Source: Utricularia gibba (lineage: Eukaryota; Streptophyta; Magnoliopsida; Lamiales; Lentibulariaceae). From it: a stretch of DNA of 64,000 nucleotides. The notes beneath the pieces were generated by a model. That model searched no databases, was not told the origin of the DNA, and worked only from the letters and a program-made list of their open reading frames with translations. The stretch spans positions 186,001-250,000 of the forward strand of contig NEEC01000027.1 in the NCBI GenBank assembly GCA_002189035.1, in the 5' to 3' direction. This document shows positions 3,849-62,400 of this stretch, piece by piece (position 1 is the first letter of the stretch; every line of letters starts with the position of its first letter). The position numbers and the translations under genes are program-made.

Positions 3849-6800
3849 ATGCACACAGCGACGGAGCGGAGCCATTTCAAGTTGATGAATCCTTTCGGGG
3901 AGCTGTTTGTGGATCTTTCGCCTTCCGAGCTCCGGGAGACTGCATACGAGGTTCTTGTTGCTGCGTGCCGGAGCCTGCCATCCGGTAAGCCGCTTACGTA
4001 TGCATCGGGATCGAGCTTTAAGGAGAGGTCTCAACAGCTGCCTGCGAGGCCGTCGATGGATGCGTCTGCGGCGGAGGGTACGGTGAAGGGGACTCTAGGC
4101 TTGCAATTGAAGGGTAGTGTACAGAAAGCCAGCGACATTTTCGGTGAGCGTCGTGCCGATTCGTTGAGGAGAGATGGAACTAGTTTTGGAGAATTTATGA
4201 GGGTTCAAATGAGGGTCTCGGAGCAAACTGATTCGAGGATCCGGCGTGGTTTGATGCGGGTCGCTTCAGCCCAGGTGCGTATTGGCTTTCTGCAACGTCA
4301 ACGTGTTAGAGCGGAGAAAGGAAATTAAAATTGATCCTCTTGGTTTGGCTGCGCAACTTGGTTTTGGTAGAGTTCGTACTGAGGATCCATTACAAATTGT
4401 CTGTCGCTGATTTACTTGATGGTGTGTAAAATGTCTTTTTTGACGCAGCATGGTTGAAACTGTTCTCTGAGAGTTTCATTTATTTGCAGCTTGGTAGGCG
4501 TGTTGAGTCGATGGTTCTGCCATTGGAGCTGCTGCGACAGTTCAGGATCTCAGACTTTTCCAGTGAGAAGGAGTATGATGCGTGGCAGAGGAGATACTTA
4601 AAGGTTCTTGAAGCTGGACTCCTCCTCCATCCAAGCCAGCCTCCTGAAAGAGCACCAGTAACTGCTCAGCGGCTTCGAAAGATTTTATACAAAGCATTTG
4701 AGAAACCAAATGAAATTTTGAGGAACAGTGAATCGATGGGCATTCTGTGCACTGTCGTGAATTCTCATGCTTGTAGCTCAGGATCAGATATGTGCCACTG
4801 GGCTGATGGGGTTCCTCTAAATCTTCATTTATACAAGATTCTTTTGGAGTCCTGCTTTGACGTAAATGATGAGTCCACCATTACTGCAGAGGTTGATGAT
4901 GTGTTGGATCAAATTAAGAAGACTTGGTTAATTCTTGGGATAAATCAGGAGTTTCACAATCTCTGCTTTTGTTGGGTTATGTTTCACCGATTTGTTACGA
5001 CAGGGGAAAACAAAGATGACCTTCTTTTTGGTTGTAGTCAGATGGTGTTGGAACTGGAAAAAGATGGTTTTTCATTCGTCAACAACGCATACTTAAAGAT
5101 CTTAAGCTCGATATTGGACATAATATCAGATTGGACCAGGACACGGCTTAATCAATACCAAGATGCTTTTTATAGGGGCAACATAGACTTAATGCAAGTT
5201 ACCTTATCTCTTGGCATATGCGTGGCTAAAATGGTGCGTGGCATGACTCAGAAACAAAGTAAGAAAATGGCATCTGTTGATGTGGCATGTGAACTTGTCG
5301 AGGCTTACATCAGGTCTTCTATGAACAATGCTTTTGTTAAGGCAAGCATTCTAAGATTTTCTTAGGAGATACTCCTCTTTTTTTTTTGTATATTTAAAGA
5401 TTGATTCCTTCGTCAATATCAGATTGCACCACTTGAAAAAATTCTTTGATGTTGTTTATTTCAATTCTGTTTCAAGTTCATATATAATTTTCTAGTTTGT
5501 ATTCGTCACTTCATTATATTTCCTTGGCTCAGGCTCTATTTTGCTCTGTCTGAAGACAGGAAAGAGAGAAGCTTCTTTCAAACAATAATTCCTCTACGGG
5601 CCAAAGGAGTGTTCTACCGTTTCTTTCCATACTTGCCCAGAACATTTGTGACATGGCGTATAACGAGAAGGAAATATATAGCCCTGTCCTTAAAAAATGG
5701 CACCCTGTAGCAACTGGTGTAGCAGTAGCTACGCTTCATTCTTGCTATGCAAATGAGCTTAAAAAATTCATTTTGGGCACAACTGAGTTAACTCCCGAAG
5801 CAATACAGGTTCTCCTAGCAGCTGAAAAACTGGAGAAAGATCTTGTGCAAATGGCAGTTATTGATTCAGTGGATAGTGAGGACGGAGGGAAAGCAATCAT
5901 CCAGGAGATGACTCCTTATGAAGCCGAGGCAGCAATCGGCAGCTTAGTGAAGTCCTGGATACAGGCAAGAGTTGACAGACTTGGAGAGTGGATTGAAAGG
6001 ATGCTACAAAAAGAGGTACCAAATCTCCCTTCTCTGTGTACCTTTTCCCCCCTGCTGCTATAGTGAACTCAAATGAATTTCAGAACACAGGATTTTTGAC
6101 CTTTTTTTTTTTGAGAAAATACCCTGCATTAAGCCATGACCAGTTGTGATGCTGGTTTAGAATAAATTGTTTTGCTTGTAATCACTAGAAGAGTTTTCTT
6201 GTGATCACTGTGTCCCATGAGTTCGAGCTGCTTAGAAGTATTCACTGGAATACTGCATTTTAGCCAACAAATGAGCGGCTGAGTTCCTTTTTAGTTGTGT
6301 GTGATTCTACGACTACAAAGTTTACGAATTTACCATTTTGAAAATATCAAGGAATTTACATGTAAGACTGGATGCCTGTTGGCTTTCTTAAATTCCAATT
6401 TAGCTGACTCTTGCTAACAGAGGCATGACACATTTGATTTCACCTTTTTTTGTTGTTATTATTATTATTATTTTTTTTTCAGGAATGGAATCCTCGAGCA
6501 AATCAAGGACGTTTTGCACCTTCTGCTACCGAACTTCTACGTTTAATAAATGAGATGCTGGAAGCATTCTTTTTGCTCCCAATATCTAATCATCCATCTT
6601 TGCTGCCAGATTTGATGATGGGACTCGATAAGTGCATTGAGAAGTACATCATGCATGCAGTGTCTGGATGTGGTAAAATCATCATGCAATTTGCACGTTT
6701 ACATGAATTATTGCAGATATTTATTATGTTATATTATGCAGGATCTCGACTTGCATATATTCCATCACTCCCTGGGCTCAGCCGCTGCACAACAAGTTCC

Positions 6801-7643
6801 AAAAAAAGTCCATTTAAAAGGCCTTCAGATAAGAAATCGTATGTCCAGGAGAGTAGTGAAAATGGTGGCTTTAGTTTGGCACGACTGTGTCTTTGTATTA
6901 ATACCTTTTACCACACCTTAAAAGAGTTGGAAGTATTTGAAAAACGAATAGTGCACAATCTGAAGAACATTGGATTTGCAGAAGATAACACTGTTGCCAA
7001 GGGCGAATTTATCCTGTCCAGATCATCTTTCATGGAAGGGATCAGGCAGCTCTCCGAGGCAACTGCATACAGAGTTGTATTCCATGATCTGAAGCATGCT
7101 TTCTGGGATTTCCTATACATTGGAGAAATCTCTTCATCGAGAATCGAACCATTTATGGAAGAGTTGGAGCGACACTTGGAAGTAATATCATCTGCAGTTC
7201 ATGACAGGGTTCGTACCCATGTGATCACCAGTGTGATGAAAGCCTCCTTCGATGGTTTCTTGTATATTTTGCTTGCCGGTGGACCATCCCGCACTTTCAC
7301 TCTACAGGATGGAGTGATAATTACTGAGGATTTCAATTCTTTAGCTGATCTCTTCTGGTCCAATGGAGATGGCTTACCAGCTGATTTAATCAGTAAACTA
7401 GCGGATAACATAAATGGAATCCTATCTCTCTTCCAAACATCTACTGAGGACCTTATCAAGAAATTGAGGTCTGCTTTAAATGTTGGAGGAGCATCAGCTA
7501 ATTCAAGGCTTCCATTGCCTTCAACGTCAGGTGAGTGGAGCCCCTCAGATCCTAACACCATTCTGCGTGTTTTGTGTTATAGAAAGGACAAGGTAGCATC
7601 GAAATTTCTCAAGAGAACCTATGGTTTGCCAAAGGCAATTTAG
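3849..7643 (+). CDS. DUF810 / unc-13 homolog family protein, copy 1
   Basis: Five exons: 3849-4274, 4490-5341, 5560-6015, 6483-6672 and 6742-7643, giving 941 residues. The second intron (5342-5559) starts with GC (TTAAG/GCAAGC) instead of GT. Family hallmarks are LSPSELRETAYEVLVAACRS near the N-terminus, VLPLELLRQFRISDF, SPVLKKWHPVATGVAVATLH, ELTPEAIQVLLAAEKLEKDL and the C-terminal VMKASFDGFLYILLAGGPSR (MHD2-like end). The best-known relative, Arabidopsis PATROL1, is a Munc13-like tether that moves the H+-ATPase AHA1 to the plasma membrane. This shorter branch is less studied, so a role in vesicle tethering is inference. The conserved N-terminal segment may begin at Met 3885, and the low-complexity N-terminus of copy 2 (59478-63562) is missing here. 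Exons 3 and 4 have exactly the same lengths as in copy 2. Confidence 0.93.
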
Positions 7644-17122: not shown

Positions 17123-18251
17123 ATGGCAAGCAACGCCGAGACTGTAGCCGCTAGACGTCCGGAGGATGAGGAGGAGGAAGATGCGAGGGCGGAAGATGAG
17201 GATACAGGGGCTCAGATTGCTCCCATCGTCAGACTACAGGAAGTTGCTGTTACGACGGGGGAGGAAAACGAAGATGTCCTTCTAGACTTGTTAGTTTTCC
17301 TACATCTTTGCATTATGTGCGGTTGTGTTCTTTTACAAATGCCCTGCTTGTCTATGTATGTATGTACCCACGGATGCAATTTTGATCTGCTTTATATCAT
17401 CCTGCTCTGATGCGATCGATGTTCTTTTTGGATACGGTGTTTGGATCGGGAGTTGGTGACGTTTTATGTTACGGCTGATTTGCATTTGCAGGAAGGCGAA
17501 GCTGTATAGGTTCGATCAGGATGGCAAACAATGGAAAGAAAGGGGTGTTGGCAATGTAAAGCTACTTAAGCACAAGGAAACTGGAAAAGTCAGGCTCGTT
17601 ATGAGGCAGAGTAAAACCCTCAAGATTTGTGCCAACCATCTCGGTGAGCAAAGGAGGATGTTTATATACGATATTTCTTTTCAACTGTGCATTCTAATCA
17701 GGAGATTGTTTGAATGCCTGTTTGTGGAATTGTGTTCAGTGCTGCCGTCTCTGAAGCTTCAGGATCATCAAGGAAATGACAAGTCCTGTGTATGGCATGC
17801 TGCCGATTACGCAGATGGTGAACTGAAACAGGAGACTTTCGCCATCCGTTTCCCCTCTCTGGAGAGTGAGTAGATCCTGCGTTTTACATTGATGCTAATC
17901 TTCATTGCTGCCATTTGTATGCTGTTATTTGTTCCTTTTGAACTTTCCCTGGGTTCTATATGTTGAATCCCTTAATGCCTTTTCTAATGAGTTCTGTGAT
18001 GCATCGCCCTTTGCCTCTCACGTAAAAGCCCCTGGTGTTTTTTCTTTTTTTCAGATTGCAGAACTTTCCGGGAAACTATTGAAGAAATAACAGAATCCGA
18101 GGCTAAAAAGGCTGGAGAAGATGAAGAAGCTGACGCTGCTGCCAGTCTTATTCAGAGTTTGAGTGTTGGTGAGACAGGGGAGGCCAGCGTTCCTGCAGGT
18201 TCAACCGCCCAAGATGATAAACCACAACCTTCATCCGCAGAAAAACCATGA
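17123..18251 (+). CDS. RANBP1: Ran-binding protein 1 (RanBP1)
   Basis: Four exons: 17123-17289, 17492-17643, 17740-17865 and 18055-18251, totalling 642 bases (213 residues). An acidic N-terminus ([14 protein letters not shown]) leads into the Ran-binding domain. Conserved pieces are [52 protein letters not shown] and [13 protein letters not shown]. RanBP1 binds RanGTP, stimulates RanGAP-driven hydrolysis and releases export complexes at the nuclear pore. All intron phases agree and the size matches plant RanBP1. The start is the first ATG in a good context after the telo-box. Confidence 0.95.
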
Positions 18252-19393: not shown

Positions 19394-19500
19394 GGTGACA
19401 GAAAGAGGGCGAGCACTCATGGCTTCGAGCATGAATGAGCGAGCCAGTGTCCATCATCTGTGCAGGAAAACACCATGAATGCCCACTCTCTTCTGTCACC
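19394..19500 (-). ncRNA. MIR156: MIR156 precursor hairpin
   Basis: On the minus strand the 5' arm (from 19500) reads GGTGACAGAAGAGAGTGGGC and the 3' arm (ending 19394) reads GCTCGCCCTCTTTCTGTCACC. About 28 base pairs form between the arms with only one bulge and one mismatch plus a few G-U pairs, and the loop is about 50 bases. The expected mature miRNA is TGACAGAAGAGAGTGGGCAT (19498-19479). It differs from canonical miR156 (from memory) at positions 16 and 20 only. The star strand GCTCGCCCTCTTTCTGTCA is also of the usual miR156* type. miR156 represses SPL transcription factors and holds plants in the juvenile phase. The orientation is fixed because the minus-strand 5' arm has the canonical core, whereas the plus-strand 5' arm has an extra base and weaker match. 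Confidence 0.88.
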
Positions 19501-19615
19501 GAGCTAACCCGGAACCCCAAAATGCTGCCGAAACAGCCCAGCCGAGCCTAGCCGCCTCCCTCAGGCTGTTCTCCTTCCATTGTATGGTGAAGTATTGGCA
19601 CTAGGAAACCCTGGC

Positions 19616-19622
19616 ATTTATA
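19616..19622 (-). promoter_or_regulatory. possible TATA box for MIR156 transcript
   Basis: TATAAAT on the minus strand, inside CTCTATAAATGCC, about 115 bases upstream of the hairpin. Plant MIR genes are transcribed by RNA polymerase II, often from TATA promoters. A start site near 19585 would follow. Position and sequence are seen; use as a promoter is inference. Confidence 0.35.
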
Positions 19623-20166
19623 GAGGGAGGATTCCAAGCCCCGCCATGGCTGCTGAATAGATGTGGGCATATTATATTGGATTTATTTTATCACGCGGAC
19701 ATCTGGGACTAACGACGATCATTCTAGATCTATTCACCATCCAAGACCCTCAACTTACCACCTCTTCGCCGTGTTCCTTTCACCATTTCCCATGTTTTTA
19801 CCACCACAAATAAAAAGACCATCACTTTAGCCTCCATGACTGCAAAATGTCTTCCAACAAAAGAGGAATGTCGACAAAAATCAAGTAGTTGTGGTGTTTA
19901 GTAAAGTTTAAAAGTGTTGTCCAAATTGATTCTAAAAGTAAGGGTAGTATGTATGGTATGATACATTTACCCCTGTCCTGTGCTGTGCTGGGGTGGGTGG
20001 GTGGACACAAGTCAATAAAAGTACTAGTACTCTAGTATTGGTGGCGGATAACCCCCAATTCAGTACCTTAGGCCATCCCAGAGAAGTAGTACAACTGCAA
20101 GCGAGCGGCATTTGTACTAGTGTTCTTTGGGTTAGAAACCGCAGCTGCAGCATCCATGACTCCAAG

Positions 20167-20305
20167 GTAGACAGCATTCATGGCTTCCAGCATGGGACTT
20201 TTAACAAAAAAAGACAAGGCGAATCCGGGCATAGAAAGAGAGGTAGAGCGAGCGAGCATTCACAGCTTCTTCCATGGATTGAGGTGCAACTCTCCTGCAA
20301 CTGCT
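20167..20305 (-). repeat. degenerate MIR156-like segment
   Basis: Plus-strand 20231-20275 (ATAGAAAGAG, then GAGCGAGCATTCACAGCTTC) resembles the star-arm side of the MIR156 locus at 19397-19430 (ACAGAAAGAG, GCGAGCACTCATGGCTTC) with an insert of about nine bases. A shorter fragment at 20173-20195 (AGCATTCATGGCTTCCAGC) repeats the same motif again. The opposite arm near 20285-20305 is weak, so a functional hairpin is doubtful. It looks like a decayed local duplicate. An alternative is chance similarity in GA-rich sequence. Confidence 0.3.
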
Positions 20306-21741: not shown

Positions 21742-24358
21742 ATGTGGAAATCCATATGTTTGACGATCGTCGCAACCGCTGGAAATAACATCGGGAAAGT
21801 GCTTCAGAAGAGGGGCACCCTCATTCTCCCTCCTCTCTCGCTTAAGTTCAACGTAAGTGATATGGATTTCGTGCTATTGAGGGATATGTTTAAGCCAATC
21901 GACCCTGTTGGGCTTTTTTCATTTTTTTGAATCTTGCGTTCCTGAATGGCTGATTTGATAATCGTTAGAATTTCATCTACTTAAAAATTGGACGGTTAGC
22001 GTCGCCATTCATCGAATGGTATCGTGGATGTAAATATCGGAGCGTGTGGGTTGTTCGTAGGACCATGCTCAGTTTTTGGATCATCGTCATTTTTTTAATC
22101 CTGAAAGATAATCATGTACATTGAGTTCTTTTTTCAAGTTTCTCATTGCCCTATAAATCAAGAGCTTCTTGATCCTGGTGAATCGTGTGGATGATTGAGT
22201 AAAAGAACTGTGAGCAGTTCTTCTTTCACCTTATAAGGAATGGCCTAATGATTTATTTCCCAGGTTATACTAGCATATATTTCCAACGTCACGTGGATTA
22301 CTGGTCTCTTGATGGACTTGAGTGGAGCTGGCTTGCTGCTTCTTGCAATCTCTGAAGCTCCGGTAAATTCTACAAGACTTATTCTTATACTCTCTTCGAT
22401 AACTTGATATGGGGGCAAGCTTTTCCACCTGTCTTGTATTGAAATTGAATATAGAAAAAAAATGTTTATCCGAATGTGCCCTTGTTCATTTTGGTGATAA
22501 CTAAATTCACTATTCTATGTACAGGTGTCAGTTGTTCAACCTGTTTCGGGCTGTGGGCTTGCTATTCTTTCTGTATTTTCCCATTTTTATCTTAAGGAAA
22601 TTATGAATGCTGTTGATTGGATAGCAATCGTCCTTGCTGCTGTTGGTACCATAGGTAAATCTAAATTACTAGCAATGCAAAGCTAATTACCAGGGTCTCT
22701 TGATCCTCTCTCTATGCTTTTTTTTTTCTATAGTCTGCAATGAAATTTCATGGTAAGTGTGCCACTCTTTCTTGTGTTGATTACATGTTCAGATATCCAT
22801 ATGCTTTATTGGCCTTTGATACGTACATTGTATGCATCTTCCTTGCATCCTTGTGAGGGAATGAAAAACTTTAGTTCGTTATGTAATGTGGATTTAGGTG
22901 TTGGTGCTGGAGCTGAAGAACAGGCAACTTCTTCAATTCTGGTTTCTCGCTTGCCATTGCTGATACTCATCATAGCTTTCTTGTTTGTAGGTATCCTATC
23001 CTAATCAAAGAAGAGTCTTATCTTCTTGCTTGAAAGACAATATTTCTGCTGACTTGTATGGCTCATTGTTTTTTTCTTTTTTGAAAATAAAACTTAGTAC
23101 TTGAAGATGTTAGTGTAAGCTTTAGGTGCTTGATTGTGTTGATGCCCATTTTACTTATTGCACTAGAAGAAGGTATGCTGGGTTGTTTGTTGTATGGATG
23201 GGGTTCAATCTACAAAAAGTTGATATTAAAGCTTCAGAAAATACTGTGTAATTATTTCCCAAGTAACCCTGACGCCTGACAGGATCACCGGTTCTGGGAT
23301 TATGATGCGTAGCTTTCACTGTGTTAAGAAGCTGTTTTTTTTTTTTTTTCATATCATGGCATTTATGTGATTTATCATTAGCTTCCATTATTCCCTTTCT
23401 GTGATGTTCTTATATTTACCACCAGATACTGCTCAATGGGTGGGTTCGTCTCCAGCGACACAAATCCAAAGACCAGGCATTGGTATGTGAAGTATGTTCT
23501 CATTGAAAGCATGATCCAGACACTTATTTTGTTGGGCGCCATGATACATACAGGTGCTTCATGAAGTTGTTGAGGAGGTTGTTTACGGAGTGGAGGCTGG
23601 AATTTTGTTTGGGTAGGGGCACATTTTGAAGTTTTATTCTGTTGGACCGTTGTTGACACAACCTGTTTTGGGTTGACTGGCTGAACCAAACACGGGGAGA
23701 TTTTAAGGTGAATTGTGATTTCAGGATATCATCTGTAATATCAAAGATCGGATTCGAGTTCATGAAGCAAGGACATGGAAAATTCATTCTTCCCATCTGC
23801 ATTTCAATCTCTGTCCTGTGCAGCACATTTGGCTTCGTTTATCAGGTAAATTCATTTTATTTCAACGTAACATAGTAGCTGCTTTTGCCAACCTGCTCTT
23901 GCTCGTACTTCAAACAGACCAGAGGGCTGAAGCAAGGGAGGGCAATTGTTGTAACTACCTGTGGTGCCGTATCTGCAATCGTGACTGGTGTCCTGTGTGG
24001 CATGTATGCACTTGGAGAAACACTGCCCTCATCTCCTTCTGCTCGCCTCATGCTCCTTCTTGGATGGTAAGGCAGGCTTCAATTGATGCAATGATTCCCA
24101 TAGAATAACTCAATTTGTACTGATTTATGTTGTTTCACAACGCTTTGTTGGTGCAGGGTGTTCATCATTATGGGTGTTAGTTTGCTGGTCTTCTCATCCA
24201 GTGTTGTTGGATACCTCCCGAAGCAGTGGCGGCGACTGTCACGAAGCGGCATCGAGAGAAAGGCCTCAAGCTCCGGGCGCGCGCGGGAGGCGAATCCCAG
24301 CAGCACCTCAAGCACCCTGCATCACCTGCTACCCTCCCCAGCCAAGGAAAAGCCTTGA
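21742..24358 (+). CDS. NIPA9-like magnesium transporter
   Basis: Nine exons: 21742-21852, 22264-22362, 22525-22654, 22898-22986, 23426-23482, 23554-23612, 23725-23845, 23918-24066 and 24157-24358, summing to 1017 bases (338 residues). The protein has about nine hydrophobic segments of the DMT/NIPA fold. Conserved stretches are ATAGNNIGKVLQKRGTLILP, VSVVQPVSGCGLAILSVFSH, FYLKEIMNAVDWI, TRGLKQGRAIVVTTCGAVSA and the terminal TLHHLLPSPAKEKP. They match plant NIPA9 better than NIPA1-8. Family members are probable Mg2+ carriers in endosomal or plasma membranes; substrate is inferred from animal NIPA proteins. The donor at 22987 (GTAGGT) was chosen because it restores the family sequence FLFILLNGW. 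Confidence 0.92.
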
Positions 24359-59477: not shown

Positions 59478-62400
59478 TCATTGAAGTTTCCTGGGCAAGT
59501 TATAGGTCTTCCTAAGAAAGTTTGAAGCAGCTTCGTCATTCCTGTGACACAAAACTCTCAGCAAAGTGTTAGGATCAGATGAGCTCCATTGCCCCGAGGT
59601 TGGAGGCAAAGGAAGTCGAGGTTTAGAGGAGGAGCCATTTGTTCCAGAATTCATTCGTTTGTATAACTCGATGAGTCTCTCAGTGTCTGTTCGAAAGAAT
59701 GGAAGAATGTCTCTCGCTGTTGTTGAGAACTTATCAATAACATCATCCGGTAATCCATCACCATTTGCCCAGAAAAGATCCTTCAAGGACTTGAAATCCG
59801 CCTCTATCACCTGTGAATCCTGCAACGAAAAGGCTCGTCCAGGACCACCAGCAAGCAAAACTACCAAAAACCCATCGAATGACGCTCTCATTAGATCTGC
59901 AATGATCCGACTGCGAACTCTTTCATTAACAATATCTGCAACAATAGTCAGATGATGCTCAAGTTCTTGAAGAACAGGCTCGATCCGATGAGATGAAGGG
60001 TCATCAACATAGAGAGAATTCAGCAAAAGATGGTTCATGTCACAGAATATAACTTTATACGCAAGCCCTTCTGATAACTGCTGGACAGCTTCAATGCAAG
60101 CAGCTGGTGCGAGCTCAAACCTTTTCCCTAAACCATTTGAAAAGTCTTCTAAATGTGCAGATTCTGAGTTCCTCAATAGCGTAAGGATTCTTTTCTCAAT
60201 GACGTCCATTTCTGTCCGTATCTTGTGCAAAGAATTTATACGTACACACAATTGAAGCAGACTCACGGGGGCATTTCCATTGACGGTAGCAACCTGACGA
60301 TTCCTCTTCTGGGAAGTTGACACTGGTTTTTCTTTCTTCTTCCACTGAAACGTTGACCCAACAGTGCATCTGGTTAACATGGGCAGTTGTGGAAAATACG
60401 TTGTCCTTGATCCTGCATAAGTTCAACGACTGCTAAGTTCAACAACATTCACGTAATGAACTTCACTTCATCAAATGAGTATTACCACAGCCAGATTTAG
60501 CTTTAACTGCATAATGCTGGAGACATTTATCAAGACCGGTAACTATGTCAGGAAGGAGTGCAGGATGCATTGGTATTGGCAAACCAAAGAATGCATCCAA
60601 GGTCTCGTCAACTATTCTCAAAATCTCTATAGCTGAAGTGCCACAAGCCTCTTTATTAGTTCGTGGATTCCAGAGCTGTAAACAAAGAATAAAGTAGAGA
60701 ATTAGATAAATTACAATATTAATGTTAGTACATAACAACCAAATAAAAATAAACATATTTGAAAGATTTGACAAGGCTCAAGATTCAAGTGGAAAATAAC
60801 AGAACCAAAAACTTGTCCCCTGAACAGCCTAGCATTAGCTGTTAGCAGTGAAAAGGTACCTCCTGTTGGAGGTTTCTTTCGATCCATTCCCTTAGCCTGC
60901 CTATTCTGGTCTTAATCCATGCCTTCACCAATTTCGCCATTGCCCCTTCAGCTTCATAGGGTGGCATCTCACGGATAATTGCCTTCCCACCATCATCACT
61001 ATCTACTGATTCTTCAACAGCGATTTGGACAAGATCTTTTTCTAATTTATCCGCAGCTCTTAATATTTGAACAGCATCTGGTGTCAGTTCCGTGATGCCT
61101 GAAATGAATTGCTTTAGTTCATTCCCATAGCAAGCATGCAAAGTCGCAACTGCAATGCCTGCAGCAAGAGGGTGCCATCTCTTCAAGACAGGACTAAACA
61201 TGCGTTTTTCCTTCATTGCAAGCTCACTAACATCCTTGGATAAGATAGCAAGGACAGGTAGGGGATTTGGTTGGTCTCTTGATGATCTTCGGCTTGAATC
61301 AGCGGTTTCCATTCTCTGCAGGCCAAAAATGTAACATCTTTAAAAGTAAAACTGGTGCCCGCCATGCTCAAAAGGAGACAACAGGAATAAGCCATTACAC
61401 TGTATATCTCAAAAAAGGCCTAAAAAATCGCATGGGTTTGTGTCAACACATGCCAGTTAAACAAGGTCTCGCACAAAATATTGGAACTCTGATAAATGGA
61501 AAAACATGTAGCAATAATTCAACTTGCCTGGGCAAATGCAGTACGCAGTGATGATCTGATGTATGTATCAATCCGGCTAAGCACCACATCAACTTCATTT
61601 TTTCTTCTCCGACGATACTCATTTGATATGTCTTCAACCAAGATCTTAGCAGATGATACAGCTATAGAAACAATGCTTTGCAAAGAATCAATGTTCTGAT
61701 TGTCAAATGTCTCATGATAAGCAAGCAACCTCTTTTCAGCCCAACCCAATATGGCAGTCAAGGTGGAATTCAATACTTTAGGATACATGGAATCTTTAGT
61801 CATTGTCGCATCTTTGGCCACTTCAGGGAGTTGTTTGTCGGCTGCAAATAATAGATCACTCTCAGTTTGACCAGAAGCAACATATCGGTTGAACAAAACC
61901 CATGTAAAACACAGATTGTGCAGCATCTGATTTATTCCGAGAGTTCCCCACGTTTTTTTTATGAGTTCCATGAGCTCGTCAACCTCCTCCACAATGGATG
62001 TCTCATCATTAATATCAAAACACGCTTCTAGAAGCATTTCATAGAGACGAAGATTTAATGGTGAACCATCTGCCCAGTGGTAGCATTCAAAAACAGCCCC
62101 CTCAGATGACCTGTTTGCAAGTGCCAATACTGTCGTACGAAGAACTTGCATTGATTCATTATTTCTTTCAGTTTCAATGGGGCGATCTAAGGCGGCATTA
62201 ATGATATGGCCCAAACGTTGGGCTGCAGCATTACCCCTCTCCACAGGCACGTGGGGGTGCAAAAGCATGCCAGCTTCCAGCATTCGAAGGTTTCTCTTCT
62301 GCCACGCATTATACTCTTCTGGATCAGTAAAATCTGAAGATTTGAACTGTTGTAAAAGCTCCAGAGGAAGAATGATTGATTCTGATACTCTTCCCACCTA

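Follow-up and report, generated by a model that had tools for sequence, protein, structure and literature searches.

We identified a MIR156 precursor hairpin on the minus strand of a 64,000-nucleotide stretch of Utricularia gibba DNA (the window; contig C496), and we consider it to be a functional MIR156 gene, one of two copies of a block duplication, with a probability of about 0.88, inferring its transcription, processing, targeting and age from sequence comparisons. miR156 is an ancient plant microRNA that sets the juvenile-to-adult timing, and a MIR156 gene in an angiosperm genome is unsurprising; apart from its slightly altered mature sequence, the locus is an ordinary member of this well-known family, and a new or at the least an unverified one. 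The initial annotation had proposed a minus-strand MIR156 gene here, and the fold, the family model, the conservation in a paralog and a conserved TATA box all back the proposal. The features on which the analysis turns are the following.

17487-17867 (C496:203487-203867), plus strand: RanBP1-domain exons, with a paralogous RanBP1 in the same arrangement beside the copy on contig C1
19394-19500, minus strand: MIR156 precursor hairpin (fold, Rfam, duplex geometry)
19394-19414, minus strand, 3' arm: predicted miR156 star GCTCGCCCTCTTTCTGTCACC, 21 nt, with a 2-nt 3' overhang
19479-19498, minus strand, 5' arm: predicted mature miR156 variant TGACAGAAGAGAGTGGGCAT, a 20-mer carrying A16G and C20U
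19616-19622, minus strand: TATA box TATAAAT, 123 nt upstream of the hairpin
20158-20202, minus strand: probable decayed second MIR156, a 3'-arm remnant (nhmmer E 4.7e-4; best match the C1 tandem partner, L011)
21742-24235, plus strand: exons of a NIPA9-like transporter gene that is present once in the genome; the product is a divergent NIPA/EamA-type membrane protein

Refolding of the locus gives exactly the stem claimed for it, with arms pairing over about 28 bases, one bulge and one mismatch: 28 pairs run inwards from 19500:19394, with mature A12 opposite C19408 as the mismatch and U19404 as the one-base bulge. The 151-nt fold reaches -65.6 kcal/mol, compared with -45.7 ± 4.0 kcal/mol for shuffled sequences (z -4.96; 0/200 shuffles as good), and the mean pairing probability is 0.94; the miRNA/star duplex contains the one mismatch and the one bulged base. 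The duplex criterion used for MIR156 was a single stem-loop with a 2-nt 3' overhang and ≤5 mismatches, and the window hairpin has this form. In a 301-base slice, the best Rfam family is MIR156 (RF00073; 55.5 bits, E 2.6e-11), and the same locus gives no match at the gathering threshold of 62. Because U. gibba loci with a perfectly canonical mature sequence (C1:8065551, C413:597620 and C505:2912113) likewise fall below 62, with RF00073 scores of 49.9-58.1 (54.7, 49.9 and 58.1 bits), we read this cut-off as a conservative curator setting and not as one that defines the family. The window hairpin thus resembles the family in its mature sequence in the 5' arm, its star in the 3' arm, its stem and its duplex geometry, and differs in the two mature substitutions, a longer terminal loop and a score below the cut-off. 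Matches to MIR156 and MIR535 on the plus strand of the locus are the palindrome read in reverse.

The predicted mature RNA agrees with canonical miR156 UGACAGAAGAGAGUGAGCAC at 18/20 positions; positions 1-15 are identical, and the only changes are at position 16 (A to G) and position 20 (C to U). Both these changes and the miR156 star in the 3' arm had been pointed out beforehand, and both are found in the sequence. The 20-mer at 19498-19479 (minus strand) is the sole miR156 match with ≤3 mismatches in the 64-kb window, where shuffles lead one to expect 0.01. The two substitutions are transitions that turn A:U into G:U and C:G into U:G wobbles, within the hairpin as well as against the usual SPL site. 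The A16G isoform TGACAGAAGAGAGTGGGCAC is on record in Brassica napus as bna-miR156_v21 (PMC3602245), in bamboo as phe-miRNA-156c (PMC4117519) and as a primer target in Larix (PMC12427833). These isoforms share the G at position 16 with the window variant, but they end in C whereas the window variant ends in U, and a miR156 form ending in GGGCAT was not found in a literature search that covered open-licence papers.

The exact variant 20-mer occurs at two sites in the genome, in the window (C496:205395, minus strand) and on C1 (7678231, minus strand). Between the two copies the mature sequence is identical at 20/20 positions, the 5' arm at 42/44 and the 3' arm at 35/38, whereas the loop agrees at 6/28 and the leader at 29/83, and blastn of the two loci over 3 kb detects no similarity beyond the hairpin. 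The star sequences are distinguishable, with C in the window and T on C1 at alignment column 224, so that star reads could be assigned to one locus or the other. The copies also have in common an alignable core promoter (~19585-19628), a block that runs through AATACTTC (28/39); the TATAAAT within it is matched by one at -115 in the paralogous C1 copy, the background frequency of the motif being 0.045 per 100 nt. That the arms and the core promoter were kept while the loop and flanks diverged is the pattern to be expected if purifying selection acts on a precursor that is transcribed and processed, as far as two copies can speak to it. With ~18 hairpins the family is redundant, and the two mature changes could be a sign that constraint here has been relaxed.

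Two other readings of the hairpin were considered. It might be a recently silenced paralog, its hairpin intact and its transcription or processing ended, as the large redundant family, the two substitutions in the mature sequence and the likely decayed neighbour at 20158-20202, which shows that copies decay here, would allow; a mature sequence that stayed identical in both copies though their loops and flanks diverged beyond recognition, together with a TATA core promoter kept in both, makes this improbable. Hairpins may also arise from short inverted repeats, MITEs for instance, so that a chance or transposon-derived inverted repeat could in principle resemble MIR156. We regard this as extremely improbable, given an expectation of 0.01 chance matches to the 20-mer, a family-level match that covers both arms, and the presence of only one other copy, which lies in a matching gene context.

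That context also speaks for a duplicated functional gene. On C1, RanBP1 lies at 7675542-7675939 (plus strand) and MIR156 at 7678231 (minus strand), in the same order and orientation as in the window, and a second MIR156, the upstream tandem partner (L011), lies 7.4 kb beyond the first, at 7685625 (minus strand). The window element at 20202-20158 (minus strand) matches this partner at 21/24 bases and is, by sequence, probably the relic of a tandem MIR156 copy. We rejected a further functional hairpin in the 20.1-20.4-kb region, which folds without a MIR156-like stem and gave no match in an Rfam search. Perhaps a further MIR156 3'-arm-like remnant is present at 20245-20281 (minus strand), upstream of the intact hairpin. 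Going by gene positions, the simplest history is an ancestral RanBP1-MIR156-MIR156 block that was duplicated, the window copy then losing its upstream MIR156, and the comparison points to an old duplication, in so far as its age can be judged in this way. MCTP and PP2C, searched as extra block markers, have no copies near C1:7.68 Mb. The window also carries two PATROL1-like genes, at 6438-7643 (plus strand) and 59478-60422 (minus strand), ~52 kb apart and in opposite orientation.

An RF00073 search of the whole genome (100,091,633 bases, 516 contigs) gave 25 rows corresponding to ~19 distinct hairpins. In a tree of 18 of the MIR156 hairpins, the window copy pairs with C1:7678231 (support 94/89), and both belong to a six-hairpin subgroup (support 91/94) whose members have in common GTGACAG at the base and GTTTTCyTGCA / TGCTyGAAGC in the upper stem. 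We take this loop and stem motif to be of the Arabidopsis MIR156E/F type, presumably with GTGACAG...CTGTCACC at the stem base and GTTTTCyTGCA...TGCTyGAAGCyATG in the upper stem of MIR156E (AT5G11977) and MIR156F. The window locus differs from these in its mature sequence and in its far-side flank, which is RanBP1 in the window and COG8 in Arabidopsis. Elsewhere in the genome, four MIR156 hairpins lie within 14 kb at C505:2898433-2912192, three of them with the mature sequence TGACAGAAGAGAGTGAGCGC, and tandem pairs of MIR156/157-type hairpins ~225 bases apart are found at C402:1101872-1102180 and C413:597396-597716, each pair possibly on one transcript.

The NIPA9-like gene lies 2.2 kb from the hairpin and is arranged divergently with it. 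Its joined exons score 25.5 bits for PF05653, against a cut-off of 26.2, and above the cut-off for EamA; this divergence explains why a PF05653 search of the genome missed the gene. The initial annotation had named the neighbour NIPA9-like and proposed an ancient locus shared with Arabidopsis MIR156E. A single-copy NIPA/EamA-type gene does adjoin the hairpin, and it may specifically be the NIPA9 orthologue. We take AT5G11960 to be NIPA9, and AT5G11970 (DUF3511) and AT5G11980 (COG8) to be the genes flanking MIR156E. Arabidopsis MIR156E is AT5G11977 (PMC5570905), and AT5G11960 appears as an MGT-family gene in a magnesium-transporter study (PMC12396710); AGI numbers run with position on the chromosome, which puts the two genes no more than about two loci apart. 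By gene number, then, a NIPA gene lies near MIR156E in Arabidopsis as well. Genome searches for DUF3511 and COG8 homologues found none near the window locus: the COG8 homologue is on C451, and the DUF3511 genes lie on different contigs or at a distance of 92 kb from the C1 copies. The displacement of these presumed neighbours would fit a coincidental NIPA9 neighbourhood, as would the fact that, in the window, RanBP1 is the nearer flank kept between the window and C1 copies. However, the NIPA9-like gene is single copy, and we estimate, uncorrected for the choice of gene, a chance of ~0.1% that a given gene lies ≤2.5 kb from one of ~18 hairpins in 100 Mb. Coincidence is accordingly a possibility to be taken seriously and yet the less favoured one, and an ancestral locus common to the window MIR156 and Arabidopsis MIR156E is plausible, not proven.

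The suggestion that the changed bases alter SPL target strength holds as a prediction, with a small effect for most targets and one of opposite sign for a single target. A linked miR156 site (≤3 mismatches) was found for 15 SBP genes of the genome, and on these sites the variant has plant penalty scores of 1.5 to 4.5. On 14/15 of them it forms extra G:U pairs that raise the penalty by 0.5 to 1.0 and cost the duplex 0.8 to 2.2 kcal/mol of stability. At the remaining site, C3:4456101 (GUGCCCUCUCUCUUCUGUCG), position 16 faces a C that forms a pair with the variant but a mismatch with canonical miR156, and the duplex energies are -33.7 and -28.1 kcal/mol, respectively. The modelling thus predicts slightly weaker binding of the variant at most SPL sites and stronger binding at one. 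Position 16 lies outside the region most important for slicing, so the consequences in planta may be minor. The MIR156 at C402:1102097 (TGACAGAAGAGAGAGGGCAC) matches the C3:4456101 site still better (19/20 by eye), and the window locus is therefore not the sole candidate regulator of this SPL. This exact SPL site, C opposite position 16 included, did not turn up in the papers searched. It is conceivable, and in our judgement unlikely, that the A16G, C20U isoform is sub-functionalised, kept for SPL mRNAs with C opposite position 16 and so splitting miR156 control among SPL paralogs. Two further miR156 target-like sites, C98:2618566 and C412:83397 (both minus strand), have no SBP exon found nearby; they may mark SBP genes that were overlooked, or be orphan sites.

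If the locus works as a MIR156 gene, a Pol II transcript would start ~30 nt past the TATA box at 19622-19616 (minus strand) and contain the hairpin, and DCL1 would cut it to release the 20-nt miR156 and its star. The 5' U of the mature RNA is the AGO1 preference, and the loaded RNA would direct cleavage or repression of SPL mRNAs, helping to set the vegetative phase. The wobbles from the changed bases would keep folding and most targeting at slightly weaker pairing, with C3:4456101 bound better. RanBP1 would have been carried in the same block duplication; the upstream tandem partner is still there on C1, whereas its window counterpart looks decayed. A published small-RNA survey of this species (PMC8333044; libraries PRJNA526734) reported 71 miRNA loci, placed miR156 among the five families giving 94% of the miRNA reads, and found DCL1, HYL1, SE, HST1 and AGO1 conserved, so that the plant has the processing machinery and abundant miR156, to which this locus may contribute.

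The locus adds a well-supported member, with a variant mature sequence conserved in a duplicate, to the MIR156 genes of a plant whose genome is minute. It also offers one testable case of co-variation between a microRNA isoform and its target at position 16. MIR156 sequences are, save rarely, too short to allow orthology to be traced; if the MIR156-NIPA linkage is common to U. gibba and Arabidopsis, MIR156 orthology would be traceable by position.
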